Shown piece by piece: positions 41,233 to 46,515 of a DNA stretch of 47,294 nucleotides. Position numbers and translations under genes: made by a program. A model generated the notes under the pieces. The model worked only from the letters and a program-made list of their open reading frames with translations, did no database searches and was not told the origin of the DNA. How positions within the stretch are numbered: the first letter of the stretch is position 1; each line of letters opens with the position of its first letter. The DNA comes from Candidatus Thioglobus sp. (lineage in GTDB: Bacteria; Pseudomonadota; Gammaproteobacteria; PS1; Pseudothioglobaceae), in assembly GCA_012959965.1 (NCBI GenBank), contig DUCF01000003.1, positions 1-47,294 on the forward strand, given 5' to 3'.

Positions 41233-41356
41233 AAATAACTATAAATACATTAAAAATCATATAGTTATATAGCTATTAGTTATTTATTACAACCACTTAT
41301 TGTTCGTTAGTGCGTCAACTACAGTTATTTATTACTACTACTGGTATAAAATAACT
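41233..41356. promoter_or_regulatory. Four AGTTATTT sites upstream of nadE
   Basis: AGTTATTT occurs at 41278-41285 and 41323-41330, and as its complement AAATAACT at 41233-41240 and 41349-41356. The first three are exactly 45 bp apart. The last two form an inverted pair spanning the likely -35 and -10 region (TATAAA 41345-41350), 28-61 bp before the nadE ATG. This is consistent with an operator array for a repressor, possibly NadE's own HTH domain. Confidence 0.45.
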
Positions 41357-41383
41357 AAATATTATCCAAATGACAACTGAAAA

Positions 41384-43255
41384 ATGACCATTAAAACCTC
41401 TGAATACCTTGATATGGTACGCCTTAAGACGGGTTTATCGGATTATAAAATTGCCAAACAATATGACATTAATCAGTCTAATCTTAGCAAATACAGTTCC
41501 GGCAAGGCGGCTCTCAGTGAAACACACTCTTGGCTGTTTGCAAACATCCTTGATTTGGATCCGGCAGAAATTGTGGCAAATACCAAACTTGAGCATGCGA
41601 TAAATTCCGACAATAAAACTAAAGCCAAATTTTGGCAGGAGCAGCTCAATAAAATATTAGCCGATACTCAGCCTATTAAAATTCAAATCGCGCAATTTCA
41701 CCCCGTTGTTGGTGATATCTCCAATAATGCCAGGAAAATTCTTGATATGAGCATCGAGGCGCTTGATCTTGGTGCGCATATGATTGTTTTTCCAGAGTTG
41801 GCGTTAACAGGTTATCCGCCAGAAGACCTTTTATTGCGCTCAGGGCTTATCAAGCAGGTTGAGCTTCGTATTAATGAACTTTGCAATCAACTACCCTCTT
41901 CGATTGCTGTTTTGTTTGGTGCGCCAAGCTCTACTGGGGAAATCCTTCACAACAGCGCATACTGCATTCATAAAAACAAAGTGGTGCATATTTATCACAA
42001 ACAGTCTCTACCCAATTATGGAGTGTTCGATGAGAAACGCTACTTTAGCCCCGGCGAAAGGACACTTGTTTTTGAACACCAAGGCTGTAAGATTGGCGTG
42101 TTGATCTGTGAAGATGCCTGGGTCGGAGATCCTTTGGAAAAAGCCTGTCAAGCCAATGCCGATTTGATTATTAGTTTGAACGCTTCTCCTTTTCAATCGA
42201 ACAAGTCCCAACAGCGTATTGACCTATACCGCCAGCACGCGCTCAAATGGGGCGTGGACTTACTTTATGTAAACTCTGTGGGTGGGCAAGATGAGCTGGT
42301 ATTTGATGGTGGTTCTTTTATGATGAATACCAAAGGTAAGATTGTTCAGCAATTGCCATTTTTTGAAGATTGCCAAGTTTTGCACACCAACCCTTGCGAA
42401 TATAGTGAGCTTCCCGGGGTCGCTTTAATCTACAAAGCACTTGTGCTTGCTACCAAAGACTACGTAAAGGGTAATGGCTTTGCTGGCTCTCTTATTGGCC
42501 TTTCTGGTGGTATTGACTCTGCCCTCACCCTTGCCATTGCTGTAGATGCCCTTGGGGCTGAGAACGTCAGTGCGGTAATGATGCCTTATCGGTTCACCTC
42601 GGGCATGAGTCTTGAGGACGCCGAAGAACAGGCGAGAACGCAAGATGTTCATTATTCGAGTATTGATATTCATCCAATGGTCACGGCTTTTAATTTATCT
42701 TTGGCTGATTCGTTCGATGGTGCCGATAAAGACACGACTGAAGAAAACATTCAAGCCAGAGTTCGTGGCATCTTACTAATGGCCTTGTCTAACAAGTGGC
42801 ACAAGATGGTGCTGGCTACTGGCAATAAATCTGAAATGTCTGTTGGTTACGCCACTCTTTATGGTGATATGTGCGGTGGCTTTGCGCCACTTAAAGACAT
42901 CTCTAAAACTCTTGTTTATCAACTGGCCAATTATCGCAACTCTGTCTCTAAAGTCATTCCTGAGCGCGTCATTACCAGACCCCCTTCTGCCGAGTTAGCG
43001 CCAGACCAAGTCGATCAAGACTCATTACCCCCTTACGACGCTCTTGATGATATTCTAATGCGATTTGTTGAAGAAAAGCTTTCTGTTGAAGAAATTGCTC
43101 AACATGGGCATGATATAGAGCTTGTTAAAAAAGTCACTTCGATGGTGCTAAATAACGAGTACAAAAGACGTCAATCAGCCCCCGGGCCAAAGGTAAGTGC
43201 TAATGCTTTTGGTAAAGAAAGGCGCTACCCAATGACCTCTAAGTTTAAACCCTAG
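41384..43255 (+). CDS. nadE: Glutamine-dependent NAD+ synthetase with N-terminal helix-turn-helix extension
   Basis: NadE amidates nicotinic acid adenine dinucleotide to NAD+ using ammonia from glutamine. The 623-aa product has a nitrilase-type glutaminase domain from residue 98 (Glu138 in FPELALTGYPPED; Lys206 or a nearby Lys before LPNYGVFDE; Cys242 in ICEDAW). The synthetase domain has the PP-loop SGGIDS at 374-379 and GNKSEMSVGYATLYGD. The first 97 residues are extra. They resemble an XRE/DUF3693-like helix-turn-helix (SDYKIAKQYDINQSNLSKYSSGKAALS, then a helical WLFANILDLDPAEIVA part). No in-frame ATG, GTG or TTG near residues 84-97 would allow a normal-length start, so the fusion is real in this sequence. 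It lies between two amino-acid importers. Confidence 0.93.
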   Translation: MTIKTSEYLDMVRLKTGLSDYKIAKQYDINQSNLSKYSSGKAALSETHSWLFANILDLDPAEIVANTKLEHAINSDNKTKAKFWQEQLNKILADTQPIKIQIAQFHPVVGDISNNARKILDMSIEALDLGAHMIVFPELALTGYPPEDLLLRSGLIKQVELRINELCNQLPSSIAVLFGAPSSTGEILHNSAYCIHKNKVVHIYHKQSLPNYGVFDEKRYFSPGERTLVFEHQGCKIGVLICEDAWVGDPLEKACQANADLIISLNASPFQSNKSQQRIDLYRQHALKWGVDLLYVNSVGGQDELVFDGGSFMMNTKGKIVQQLPFFEDCQVLHTNPCEYSELPGVALIYKALVLATKDYVKGNGFAGSLIGLSGGIDSALTLAIAVDALGAENVSAVMMPYRFTSGMSLEDAEEQARTQDVHYSSIDIHPMVTAFNLSLADSFDGADKDTTEENIQARVRGILLMALSNKWHKMVLATGNKSEMSVGYATLYGDMCGGFAPLKDISKTLVYQLANYRNSVSKVIPERVITRPPSAELAPDQVDQDSLPPYDALDDILMRFVEEKLSVEEIAQHGHDIELVKKVTSMVLNNEYKRRQSAPGPKVSANAFGKERRYPMTSKFKP

Positions 43256-43265
43256 GGCTTTCACT

Positions 43266-44015
43266 TTATTTTGGGTGTCGTAGGTAAGGAGTGAATTTGA
43301 TTTCAAGATACTTCACCAGCTGAGTAACCAAAAAGTTAAGGATCAAATACAGCAATCCTGCAATCAAGAAAATTTCTACTGGTGTCCAGTATTTGGCGAT
43401 AATTTGCTTGGCAATGCCTGTAATTTCCATTAAGGTGATAATGCTTACCAACGAGGTGCCCTTTACCATCAGTATCATTTCGTTGCCATAGGCTGGCAAA
43501 GCCTGTCTAAAAGCAATTGGGAAGATAATCCTTCTGTAAAGTAGCAAGCCACTCATCCCCATCGCACGCGCAGATTCTATTTGACCAAAAGGTACCGATT
43601 GCAAACCACCACGAATAATCTCAGCCGTGTAGGCGCCGGTATTTAGTGTTAACGCGAGAATACCACACCAATAGGCCTCTTTTAAAAAAGGCCAAAGGAA
43701 GCTCTGCTGAACAAATTCAAATTGCCCAAAGCCATAATAAAGCAAAAAGACTTGAACCAAAAGTGGTGAGCCGCGGAAATAAAAAACATAGCCACGAGCA
43801 AAACCATTTAGCACTCGATTATTAGAAAGTCGCATCATGGCAATACCAAGCGCCAAGAATAATCCAATGAAAAGTGAAATAGAAACCAACTCAATGGTTA
43901 AAGGGACGCCTTTCAGTAAATCTGGCAGTTTTTCACACATTAAGTTAAAGTTCAACCAGCCTTCTCGACCTGGTAGGCCTTCACACATCTGAAAATACCC
44001 ACTGGAAATAGTCAT
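43266..44015 (-). CDS. Polar/basic amino-acid (opine-type) ABC importer, permease HisM-like
   Basis: The 249-aa permease has five or so TM helices with YFRGSPLLVQVFLLYYGFGQFEF, typical of the HisM/OccM group, and the EAA-type loop ESARAMGMSGLLLYRRIIFPIAFRQALP. I start it at the ATG at 44015, which has an AAGGAGG ribosome site 8 bases upstream; the longer frame to 44048 would overlap the other permease. It lies 2 bp after the partner permease and ends 10 bp from convergent nadE. Confidence 0.93.
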   Translation of the reverse strand: MTISSGYFQMCEGLPGREGWLNFNLMCEKLPDLLKGVPLTIELVSISLFIGLFLALGIAMMRLSNNRVLNGFARGYVFYFRGSPLLVQVFLLYYGFGQFEFVQQSFLWPFLKEAYWCGILALTLNTGAYTAEIIRGGLQSVPFGQIESARAMGMSGLLLYRRIIFPIAFRQALPAYGNEMILMVKGTSLVSIITLMEITGIAKQIIAKYWTPVEIFLIAGLLYLILNFLVTQLVKYLEIKFTPYLRHPK

Positions 44016-44017
44016 AA

Positions 44018-44731
44018 TCAAGCCCTCCTTACACCTTTGTTGGCCCAATTCTCAGCACTATTGAGGGCATGAGTTGAGACCGTTGTTAGGGTCAAGTAAA
44101 GAATGGCGGCAAAAATATAGAAAACAAACGGCTCCTTGGTATTTCCAGCAGCAATCTGTGCGGTGCGCATAATCTCAGCAATTGCCATCACACTTATAAG
44201 CGCCGTATCTTTTAAGGTTAACTGCCAAACATTGCCTAACCCCGGCAAGGCGTAGCGCATGACTTGTGGCACGAGAATACGGTGAAATATTTGAAATTTT
44301 GACATGCCAACCGATTTGGCTGCTTCGATTTGGCCTTTGGGTACCGCTAAAAAAGAACCTCTAATAACCTCTGTTGAGTAAGCTCCAGAGATGATGCCGA
44401 CTGCAATTGCAGCGGTGAGAAAAACAGGAAATTCGAAATACTCATGGTAATTAAACAAGCTTTTTGCGGCAGCCATTAGAGCGTTGTTGAAACCAAAGAA
44501 GAACAGATAGATTACCAACAGTTCTGGTATACCCCTGACAACCGTTGTATATGTATTACCCAAGACTCTGGAAAAAACATTGTTTGACAGCTTGGACATA
44601 GTGGCAAACACAGAAAAAACAAGACCTATTGCCATTGCCGAAACACTGACCAGCAAGGTTATAACCATGCCCATGAGCATCTCATCACCCCAACCGGTAT
44701 CGTCAAATGCAAGTAAAGCTAAAATATCCAT
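44018..44731 (-). CDS. Polar/basic amino-acid (opine-type) ABC importer, permease HisQ-like
   Basis: The 237-aa permease carries TVVRGIPELLVIYLFFFG and the EAA loop EAAKSVGMSKFQIFHRILVPQVMRYALPGLGN. It matches the HisQ/OccQ group of the lysine-arginine-ornithine/histidine/octopine importers. It follows the ATPase gene by 6 bp and forms the channel with the HisM-like subunit. Confidence 0.93.
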   Translation of the reverse strand: MDILALLAFDDTGWGDEMLMGMVITLLVSVSAMAIGLVFSVFATMSKLSNNVFSRVLGNTYTTVVRGIPELLVIYLFFFGFNNALMAAAKSLFNYHEYFEFPVFLTAAIAVGIISGAYSTEVIRGSFLAVPKGQIEAAKSVGMSKFQIFHRILVPQVMRYALPGLGNVWQLTLKDTALISVMAIAEIMRTAQIAAGNTKEPFVFYIFAAILYLTLTTVSTHALNSAENWANKGVRRA

Positions 44732-44737
44732 TGCTAA

Positions 44738-45508
44738 TTACCCTTCTAGATTTGAGGCTAAAAATTGCTTTAAACGCTCTGATTTTGGTGAATTAAAGAT
44801 CTCACTTGGCGCGCCCTGCTCCTCAATACGGCCATTATGAAGAAAGACCACTTTCGATGCAACCTCTCTAGCAAAGCCCATTTCGTGGGTGACCACAATC
44901 ATTGTTCGCCCTTCTCCCGCAAGTGACTTCATCACCTTTAATACTTCGCCAACCAGTTCTGGATCGAGTGATGAGGTCGGCTCATCAAATAGTAAAATGT
45001 CGGGATTCACAGCCAAAGCTCTAGCAATAGCCACCCTTTGTTGTTGGCCACCGGAGAGGCTTGATGGATAGTCGTCGGCCTTTTCAGTAATGCCAACTTT
45101 TGTCAATAATTCCAGGCCGCATTTAGTGGCTTCAATTTTGTTAATTTTTTGTACGTGTACTGGCGCTTCAATGACATTTTGCAATACCGTCATGTGCGAC
45201 CATAGATTAAAATCTTGAAAGACCATTGCTAGCTTTGTTCTGATACGATCAACCTGTAAATGATCGCCCGGCTGTGGTTGTCCTTTTTTGTCTAGACTCA
45301 TTTTGATCAACTCGCCGTTGACCAAAACCTCACCTGAATTTGGTGTTTCAAGTAAATTAATGCAACGCAATAAAGTGCTTTTTCCTGAACCACTAGAGCC
45401 GATGATACAAATAACATCGCCTTGATCGGCGGTCAGAGAGACGTCCTTGATAACCTCAAGATCGCCAAAAGATTTCACTAGATGTTTAATTTCTAAAGCG
45501 TTTGCCAT
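44738..45508 (-). CDS. Polar/basic amino-acid (opine-type) ABC importer, ATP-binding subunit HisP-like
   Basis: The 256-aa ATPase has Walker [19 protein letters not shown], signature [15 protein letters not shown], Walker [15 protein letters not shown] and the switch His in VVTHEMGFA. The insert [25 protein letters not shown] after the first strand is typical of the HisP/OccP branch and is absent from the AapP-like ATPase in this window. It follows a terminator behind the binding-protein gene. Confidence 0.94.
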
Positions 45509-45597
45509 ATTTTTCTCGTATTAATTTTTCTTCTATTGTAACAAACAGAGTTTGCTTGGTTTTTGTTGTAGTAGTTGTTACTGTTTTATATATAAAA

Positions 45598-45624
45598 AAA
45601 GCGGTCATTTGAGATGACCGCTTT
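45598..45624 (-). terminator. Terminator/attenuator after the binding-protein gene
   Basis: Perfect 11-bp arms AAAGCGGTCAT and ATGACCGCTTT around a 5-nt loop, followed on the minus strand by a T7 run. It separates the binding-protein gene from its ATPase and permeases, as the hairpin in the aap operon does. Confidence 0.9.
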
Positions 45625-45646
45625 CCTATAAAGATTTTCTCAATAA

Positions 45647-46468
45647 TTACATTGAGATATCTTTACCGAACCACTTAACAAAGTGAGCCGCGAGCGTACC
45701 GTCAGCTCTTGCCTCGTTAATTGCTTTGTTGAACATAGCCTTAAGATCTCTGTCGGCTTGACGCAAGCCAACACCAACACCAGGACCAAATGCACCACCA
45801 CCTAACTTAGGACCGAAGAACACAATTTTAGAACCGCTTGAGCTGTCCATAAAGTCTTGAAGTGAGCTTGTATCAGAAAGTGCAGCATCAATTCTGCCCG
45901 CAGCCAAATCAAGTTGTAGATTTTGCTGTGTGTCATACACTTTGACAGTAACCATACCACCAAGAGTCTCTCTTACAAAGTTCTCGTGAGTTGTTGAACC
46001 CTGAACACCAACAACGCCACCATTAAGGGCCGCTCTAAGTGCGTCAATCAAGTCAGAATGACCAAGGTCTAGGTTAACACTGCCAGTCTCGCCCATCTGT
46101 GCAAGAATAGAAGAACTACGAGCCGCAAAAGAGGCTGGCTCAGTCGCATAACCTTGTGAGAAATCAATAACTTGCATTCTTTCAGAAGTAATCGACATGC
46201 CCGCCATAATAACGTCATACTTACCATTCTGTAGGGCTGGAATAATACCATCCCAATCTTGAGCAACAAATTCACAAGTTACGCCCATTCTGTCACACAA
46301 GTCGTTGGCTAGGTCAATCTCTGCACCTTCAAGTTCACCAGAAGCACTTGTGCCATTCCACGGGGGGTATGCGCCTTCAGTACCAATTTTAACTGTTGAC
46401 CAAGCACCACCAAAGGCACTCGTCGCCATTGAGACGCCAAGTAGCGTCATCACTAGTTTTTTATTCAT
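45647..46468 (-). CDS. Polar/basic amino-acid or opine periplasmic binding protein
   Basis: The 273-aa product has a signal peptide (MNKKLVMTLLGVSMATSAFGG) and the class 3 solute-binding features VKIGTEGAYPPWNGT, EIDLANDLCDRMGVTCEFVAQDWDGIIPALQNGKYDVIMAGMSIT (shown in pieces) and GVQGSTTHENF. The AQDWDGIIPAL wording and the paired Cys in DLCDRMGVTCE fit the octopine/lysine-arginine-ornithine branch. I start at the ATG at 46468, which has an AAGGAG site; a longer frame to 46510 has none. Divergent from the FAD oxidoreductase gene across 194 bp. Confidence 0.92.
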   Translation of the reverse strand: MNKKLVMTLLGVSMATSAFGGAWSTVKIGTEGAYPPWNGTSASGELEGAEIDLANDLCDRMGVTCEFVAQDWDGIIPALQNGKYDVIMAGMSITSERMQVIDFSQGYATEPASFAARSSSILAQMGETGSVNLDLGHSDLIDALRAALNGGVVGVQGSTTHENFVRETLGGMVTVKVYDTQQNLQLDLAAGRIDAALSDTSSLQDFMDSSSGSKIVFFGPKLGGGAFGPGVGVGLRQADRDLKAMFNKAINEARADGTLAAHFVKWFGKDISM

Positions 46469-46515
46469 TTTTTTCTCCTTTTTATGAATTAAAATATTCT
46501 GTAAAAGCAATAAAT

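Follow-up and report, generated by a model that had tools for sequence, protein, structure and literature searches.

A glutamine-dependent NAD synthetase with an N-terminal helix-turn-helix domain: a candidate enzyme-regulator conserved in a gammaproteobacterial family

We analysed a 47,294-nucleotide stretch of DNA from Candidatus Thioglobus sp. (contig DUCF01000003.1), hereafter called the window. It carries a nadE gene whose product is predicted to begin with a helix-turn-helix (HTH) domain, followed by a glutaminase domain and an NAD synthetase domain. Three candidate operators lie upstream of this gene (Table 1). The fusion frame cannot begin earlier than its ATG, because an in-frame TGA is found at 41378, six bases 5' of this codon.

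Table 1. Features of the HTH-NadE locus, in positions of the window
Feature	Position	Strand	Details
HTH-NadE fusion gene	41384..43255	+	623 aa, stop included; ATG at 41384
Xre-type HTH domain and C-terminal helices (predicted)	41384..41674	+	residues 1-97; profiles, AF2 model, HigA-like fold
Predicted recognition helix QSNLSKYSS	41474..41500	+	residues 31-39; helix in AF2 model
Glutaminase (CN_hydrolase) domain	41687..42367	+	residues 102-328; Pfam match
NAD synthetase domain	42431..43174	+	residues 350-597; profile match
Candidate operator O1, TAGTTATTTATTACAAC	41277..41293	.	13.0 bits
Candidate operator O2, CAGTTATTTATTACTAC	41322..41338	.	12.2 bits; 45 bp from O1
Candidate operator O3, CTGGTATAAAATAACTA	41341..41357	.	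16.1 bits; 19 bp from O2

The catalytic part is a full glutamine-dependent NAD synthetase. Residues 97-622 matched the curated profile NF010588 of this enzyme with 720 bits (cut-off, 479), covering profile positions 4-543 out of 546, and both domains were complete. E138, K206 and C242 were invariant in an alignment of 22 NadE proteins, and so were S374, G375, G376, D378, S379 and A380; we take all these residues to be catalytic.

The initial annotation had proposed an HTH of 97 residues ahead of the glutaminase domain of NadE, and this proposal was borne out by profile searches, by the full NF010588 match and by conservation across the family. Residues 1-97 matched the HTH families phrog_4441 (E 1.1e-14, over residues 3-90), phrog_638 (E 2e-9) and Pfam HTH_3 (E 1.2e-4; 22.5 bits, barely below the 23-bit gathering cut-off). 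Both phrog profiles matched all 15 members of the window's genus at E≤0.001, and HTH_3 matched the same 15 at E≤0.1 (best, 7.8e-7). The label 'DUF3693-like', also given to this head, did not survive: DUF3693 was absent among the Pfam matches at E≤1 for residues 1-97, so identity with that phage protein was discarded.

The AlphaFold2 model of residues 1-97 was all-helical (pLDDT 90.9), with a helix at residues 31-39 and two terminal helices plus a linker; the HTH was also confident in a model of the full-length protein (mean pLDDT 83.0). Given its position within the HTH, we presume that the helix at 31-39 is the recognition helix. The nearest solved folds were HigA-type Xre repressors, several of them solved with operator DNA, at a Z of 9.0, which is modest for a helical domain; sequence identity to HigA/GraA-type structures was only 8-18%. 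Foldseek with the HTH model returned no significant match (best E 0.058 in the PDB and 0.0063 in a viral library), and the best E in a PDB profile search with the HTH was 0.026. Judged by profile match and predicted fold, the head is a member of the Xre/Cro-CI HTH superfamily. The collinearity of the domain across genera and its low dN/dS show that it is more than a chance match.

According to the initial annotation, no in-frame start codon would allow an enzyme of normal length. This was correct for residues 65-120 of the window frame, where no ATG, GTG or TTG occurs, but not for the whole head, which has two such codons, TTG (residue 58) and GTG (residue 64). These two codons could be invoked for an artefact of annotation or assembly, in which a separate upstream regulator gene is read into nadE or translation starts internally. 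However, start codons at residues 90-104 are found in only 4 of 63 aligned genomes (23 of 63 for residues 71-104), HTH sequences from the window's genus align without indels, purifying selection acts on the domain in five groups (see below), and the same frame is present in 11 genera, single-contig genomes included. We regard such an artefact as extremely improbable. An upstream frameshift error fusing two genes, which the initial annotation had named as a possible flaw, likewise fails, since the frame is shared by 11 genera.

To describe the distribution of the fusion, the available genomes of the order were scanned. The HTH profile matched 71 of 83 genomes, including all 49 near-complete ones, and all 11 genera. 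A strong NAD_synthase match (E<1e-20) was present in 72 of the 83, one per genome (that of G085 in two pieces). The sole genome with a strong match and no HTH was G032, whose match begins at base 166 of its contig. In the carrier genomes the fused NadE is the only strong NAD synthetase; the weaker matches, judged by their length, are probably other ATP pyrophosphatases. Most fusion frames span 590-690 codons, with shorter ones in G008, G038, G060 and G085. The HTH is interrupted in G066 (L194) and G077 (L165) and the enzyme frame is broken in G008 (L015); these are single draft genomes and the breaks are possibly assembly errors. Named carriers are Candidatus Pseudothioglobus aerophilus (of the window's genus), Candidatus Ruthia and Candidatus Thioglobus, and we take the carriers to be marine or clam-symbiont bacteria.

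From a collection of named genomes, 80 NadE loci were kept: five (L061-L065) matched from residue 1-4, and all others from residue 61 or later. In a sample of 369 genomes of the class, five had an HTH match, four of them in the family. In the fifth, G022, both matches are weak and stand-alone, and one of the two adjoins a small toxin-like gene (named by reading). A phylum sample of 398 genomes contained three HTH-matching genomes outside the family, with frames too short for NadE; the matches in G684 and G521 were weak. Thus, no HTH match on a NAD synthetase was found outside the family among the 369 class and 398 phylum genomes sampled, and 223 of 274 sampled class genomes exceeded the NadE profile cut-off. 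As the fusion is restricted to this family in our samples, a single origin, no later than the family base, is probable.

Stand-alone relatives of the HTH were also observed. An 84-codon gene in G055 (L184:7505-7759, C117; E 1.8e-28) is a second copy, located 180 bp upstream of a ribonucleotide-reductase-like gene (named by reading); it possibly gives a picture of the pre-fusion gene. Another relative was found in G744 (L278:1456-1830; E 1.1e-9), from a different gammaproteobacterial family. When residues 1-97 were compared with 50,697 phage records by tblastn, nothing matched at E≤0.01, and none of the 29 pattern matches from a scan of viral contigs was confirmed as a relative. On the basis of these two scans a recent phage origin of the head was rejected; distant phage HTH profiles do match.

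We analysed the region upstream of nadE in 68 loci of 67 genomes, after leaving out G085, G008, G038 and G039 from the 71 HTH carriers. For motif discovery, site counts, cross-validation and array sums, L165 and L194 (HTH interrupted) and L184 (stand-alone HTH) were also dropped, giving 65 loci. An inverted repeat is visible across genera in the aligned upstreams, and the three best of 60 expectation-maximization (EM) seeds converged on the same palindromic 17-mer, TAGKTAwwwwwTAMCTA. Using the full matrix, which was trained on the same sequences that it scores, we counted 3.17 sites of at least 7 bits per 300 bp of nadE upstream, versus 0.21 in Markov-sampled controls. The spacing of successive sites was 19-20, 35-36 or 44-45 bp in 102 of 141 cases, and in the window's genus a site occupied each of three fixed positions in 18 of 18 upstreams. 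Across all 68 loci, the 300-bp upstream regions of nadE contained 137 sites of at least 12 bits, compared with 10 in the remaining 523,716 bp. In the window, the sole cluster given by the full matrix is that at 41277-41357.

Cross-validation at 10 bits supported the motif in both directions. A matrix trained outside the window's genus detected 1.89 sites per 200 bp within it (control, 0.022), and one trained in the genus detected 1.79 outside (control, 0.026). Single high scores are not specific, because at 12 bits the outside-trained matrix found 11 sites in 400 kb of genome G005 (23% of that genome; 58 sites at 10 bits or more) and none at nadE in the window's genus. By contrast, density and clustering are specific: at 10 bits, 1.89 sites per 200 bp at nadE in the genus compare with 0.029 in G005. 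With the same matrix, the window contained 35 sites of at least 8 bits, including 4 at nadE, and the G005 stretch yielded one pair and no triple at 9 bits or more. This pair (11.8 and 12.0 bits, with a spacing of 45 bp), which was seen with the outside-trained matrix only, falls within a long coding gene, and we regard it as a chance occurrence.

The array was then sought at other genes. Unfused nadE loci (L066-L140; 910 kb, from other lineages whose AT content was not matched) contained five sites of at least 11 bits and no pair. The genes nadA, nadB, nadC and nadD were found above profile cut-off in 12 of 12 genomes. Their 48 loci had no site pair or array; isolated single sites of at least 11 bits occurred at four, one of them (16.4 bits) inside nadB of G030. 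A wider NAD regulon was discarded on this ground for the 12 genomes.

The position of the sites relative to the promoter bears on their possible effect. Outside the window's genus, 40 of 47 upstreams have an operator whose TAACTA continues into TATAAT (TAACTATAAT), and 36 of the 47 have a further site just downstream. The -35 boxes are poor: 5 of the 40 match the consensus at 5 or 6 of 6 positions. In the window's genus no -10 box could be placed, and a consensus promoter scan detected no plus-strand promoter at the window's nadE (3 matches, at the shuffle level of 3.7). Since sites overlap TATAAT and lie downstream of it, occupancy of the array should block RNA polymerase. Alternatively, the fusion might bind the array and activate nadE, or mainly control other genes with nadE as one target. 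In 45 of the 47 upstreams a site begins at -101 to -79, probably upstream of the -35 region, which is a possible activator position, and the scan of G005 for other targets covered 23% of the genome. Such a role is nevertheless unlikely given the overlap with TATAAT and the sites just downstream of it, and given that the full matrix found no cluster in the 400 kb of G005 (11 sites at 10 bits or more, 3 at 12 or more; nadE lies outside this stretch), in the rest of the window or at nadA/B/C/D of 12 genomes.

The initial annotation had suggested that the regulation might extend to the flanking amino-acid importers. An amino-acid importer gene (cluster 2) lies upstream of nadE, in divergent orientation, in 44 of 67 loci. 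Downstream, pabB-like (45 loci), cpoB-like (34) and pal-like (34) genes were found in the same 67 loci, many of which end early; the names of neighbouring genes are our own reading of the sequences. In the window, the genes of a second amino-acid importer occupy 43266-46510, downstream of nadE, and permease genes are similarly placed in G042. Importer control was not upheld. At the start of the divergent importer, no separate site of at least 12 bits was found beyond 300 bp of nadE in the loci scanned. Furthermore, G030 has different upstream neighbours and keeps its sites (16.6, 9.1 and 8.5 bits), so the array goes with nadE. The shared intergenic array might still affect the divergent promoter.

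We next compared selection on the two parts of the protein, using alignments of 63 loci (L176, with a truncated nadE, and L004, with ambiguous letters, were also dropped). The dN/dS of the HTH was 0.061, 0.028, 0.084, 0.084 and 0.066 in groups g1 (the window's genus), g20, g19, g21 and g16, respectively, versus 0.120, 0.080, 0.098, 0.074 and 0.106 for the enzyme; the values are approximate because synonymous differences are high, and those of g16 were computed without four reduced genomes. The HTH was thus more constrained than the enzyme in four of the five groups and slightly less in g21. Residues 29-37, 39 and 40, in the region of the predicted recognition helix, were invariant in 59 of 59 genomes outside these four.

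The reduced 1.0-Mb genomes (G044, G045, G048 and G053) showed a different pattern: dN/dS was 1.02 in the HTH versus 0.094 in the enzyme. HTH and enzyme differed in all six pairs of these genomes (Fisher test, p 2.9e-4 to 8.7e-8), whereas none of 21 control pairs of the same genus was under 0.05; the pairs are not independent, and the control comprises seven of the eight other genomes of the genus, G055 being left out. At the loci concerned (L181, L183, L180 and L182) the HTH decays neutrally and in frame while the enzyme stays intact, so that one domain is dying within a gene that lives on. That the frame is kept is as required if translation of NadE starts ahead of the HTH. The operator array is weaker in the same genomes, with top-three site sums of 15.7-28.2 bits versus 31.1-46.0 in the eight others of their genus (p 0.004). 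Elsewhere, the sums of G067 and G072 (23.3 and 23.7) fall within the range of the decayed genomes. Outside the four reduced genomes, 3 of 61 lacked a site of at least 12 bits within 130 bp, among them G047, whose HTH is intact.

These data also bear on the possibility that the HTH serves the structure or oligomerisation of the enzyme and that another protein reads the array. HTH-fold enzymes were present among the structural matches (cyanase, 6xgt; MPnS, 6b9s/6b9t), which we take to bind no DNA, and the two terminal helices and linker of the head could serve packing. However, the region of the predicted recognition helix is invariant in the 59 genomes outside the four reduced ones; the drift of the HTH beside a constrained enzyme in the four reduced genomes suggests that catalysis does not need the head's sequence; and the array is found with fused nadE but at none of the unfused nadE loci scanned. 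We consider a purely structural role quite unlikely.

Taken together, these results point to a real and conserved candidate enzyme-regulator of the trigger-enzyme kind (concept outlined in PMC8249747), in which DNA binding, repression and ligand sensing are all inferred. A predicted DNA-binding domain lies within the same polypeptide as the enzyme. The enzyme-regulator reading of the initial annotation, once importer control is removed from it, agrees with the array at the nadE promoter, with selection on the predicted recognition helix and with the separate decay of the HTH. We favour, with a probability of roughly 80%, a trigger enzyme whose Xre HTH binds the palindromes of its own promoter and represses when the enzyme or its product is abundant. 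On this reading, it would be this HTH that reads the array, and the effect of its binding would be repression.

A mechanism can be proposed for this trigger enzyme. Type-2 glutamine-dependent NadE is described in PMC7196632 as dimeric and as controlled by NAD+ inhibition and PII binding, and from this source and from homology to 4f4h and 5kha a dimer is expected for the window enzyme as well. In such a dimer, two HTHs would face each palindrome, and three sites in a row would permit cooperative binding, which is known from the triple operator of phage lambda. Occupancy of the array by HTH-NadE would shut the nadE promoter, resulting in negative autoregulation. The signal would be the ligand-bound state of the enzyme: bound NAD+, NaAD/ATP or the glutamine state may switch its affinity for DNA, which is the least certain step.

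Several known systems resemble HTH-NadE in part. NadR carries an N-terminal DNA-binding domain of Xre type on an NMN adenylyltransferase and a ribosylnicotinamide kinase. This protein of Enterobacterales combines a DNA-binding domain with enzyme domains of NAD metabolism and represses NAD genes (PMC12421817), with nadA-pnuC and others under its control (PMC5343134), whereas only nadE was found for HTH-NadE. The enzyme here is instead NadE, which catalyses the last step of NAD synthesis, and profile searches of the window protein found neither the adenylyltransferase nor the kinase domain of NadR. None of the 83 genomes of the order exceeded the cut-off for NadR (TIGR01526; weak partial matches in 71), and the winged-helix domain of NrtR (PF21906) was found in none of the 83 and was absent among the Pfam matches of the window protein.

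PutA and BirA have catalytic domains unrelated to that of NadE. They are likewise enzymes that also repress genes of their own pathway, as described in PMC6978683 and PMC8249747. For HTH-NadE, a ligand switch is a proposal. The catalytic half of the fusion is a full-length type-2 glutamine-dependent NadE, but the solved relatives, 4f4h (565 residues) and 5kha (549), leave no room for an HTH. HigA/GraA-type Xre antitoxin-repressors, the nearest solved folds of the head, several of them bound to operator DNA, are stand-alone proteins paired with a toxin, unlike HTH-NadE.

A 2025 paper (PMC12421817) lists NadR, NiaR, NrtR and NadQ as the four types of transcription factor that act on NAD synthesis, and none of these four is a NadE. 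No earlier report of an HTH on NadE was found among the titles and abstract openings listed by searches of the open-licence PMC literature. HTH-NadE may well constitute a fifth class of NAD regulator, a reading that we hold with less assurance than the trigger enzyme itself: a NadE repressor with a single origin at the family base, active-site sensing of enzyme or NAD abundance, a lambda-like triple operator and one promoter, of which reduced symbionts lose the regulatory half and keep the enzyme.

With one protein and one promoter, HTH-NadE offers a simple test system, and the four genomes whose HTH has decayed provide a natural experiment in which enzyme and regulator are set apart. If the proposal is true, a self-regulating NAD synthetase would show how a lineage with no NrtR or above-cut-off NadR in 83 genomes sets its NAD supply.
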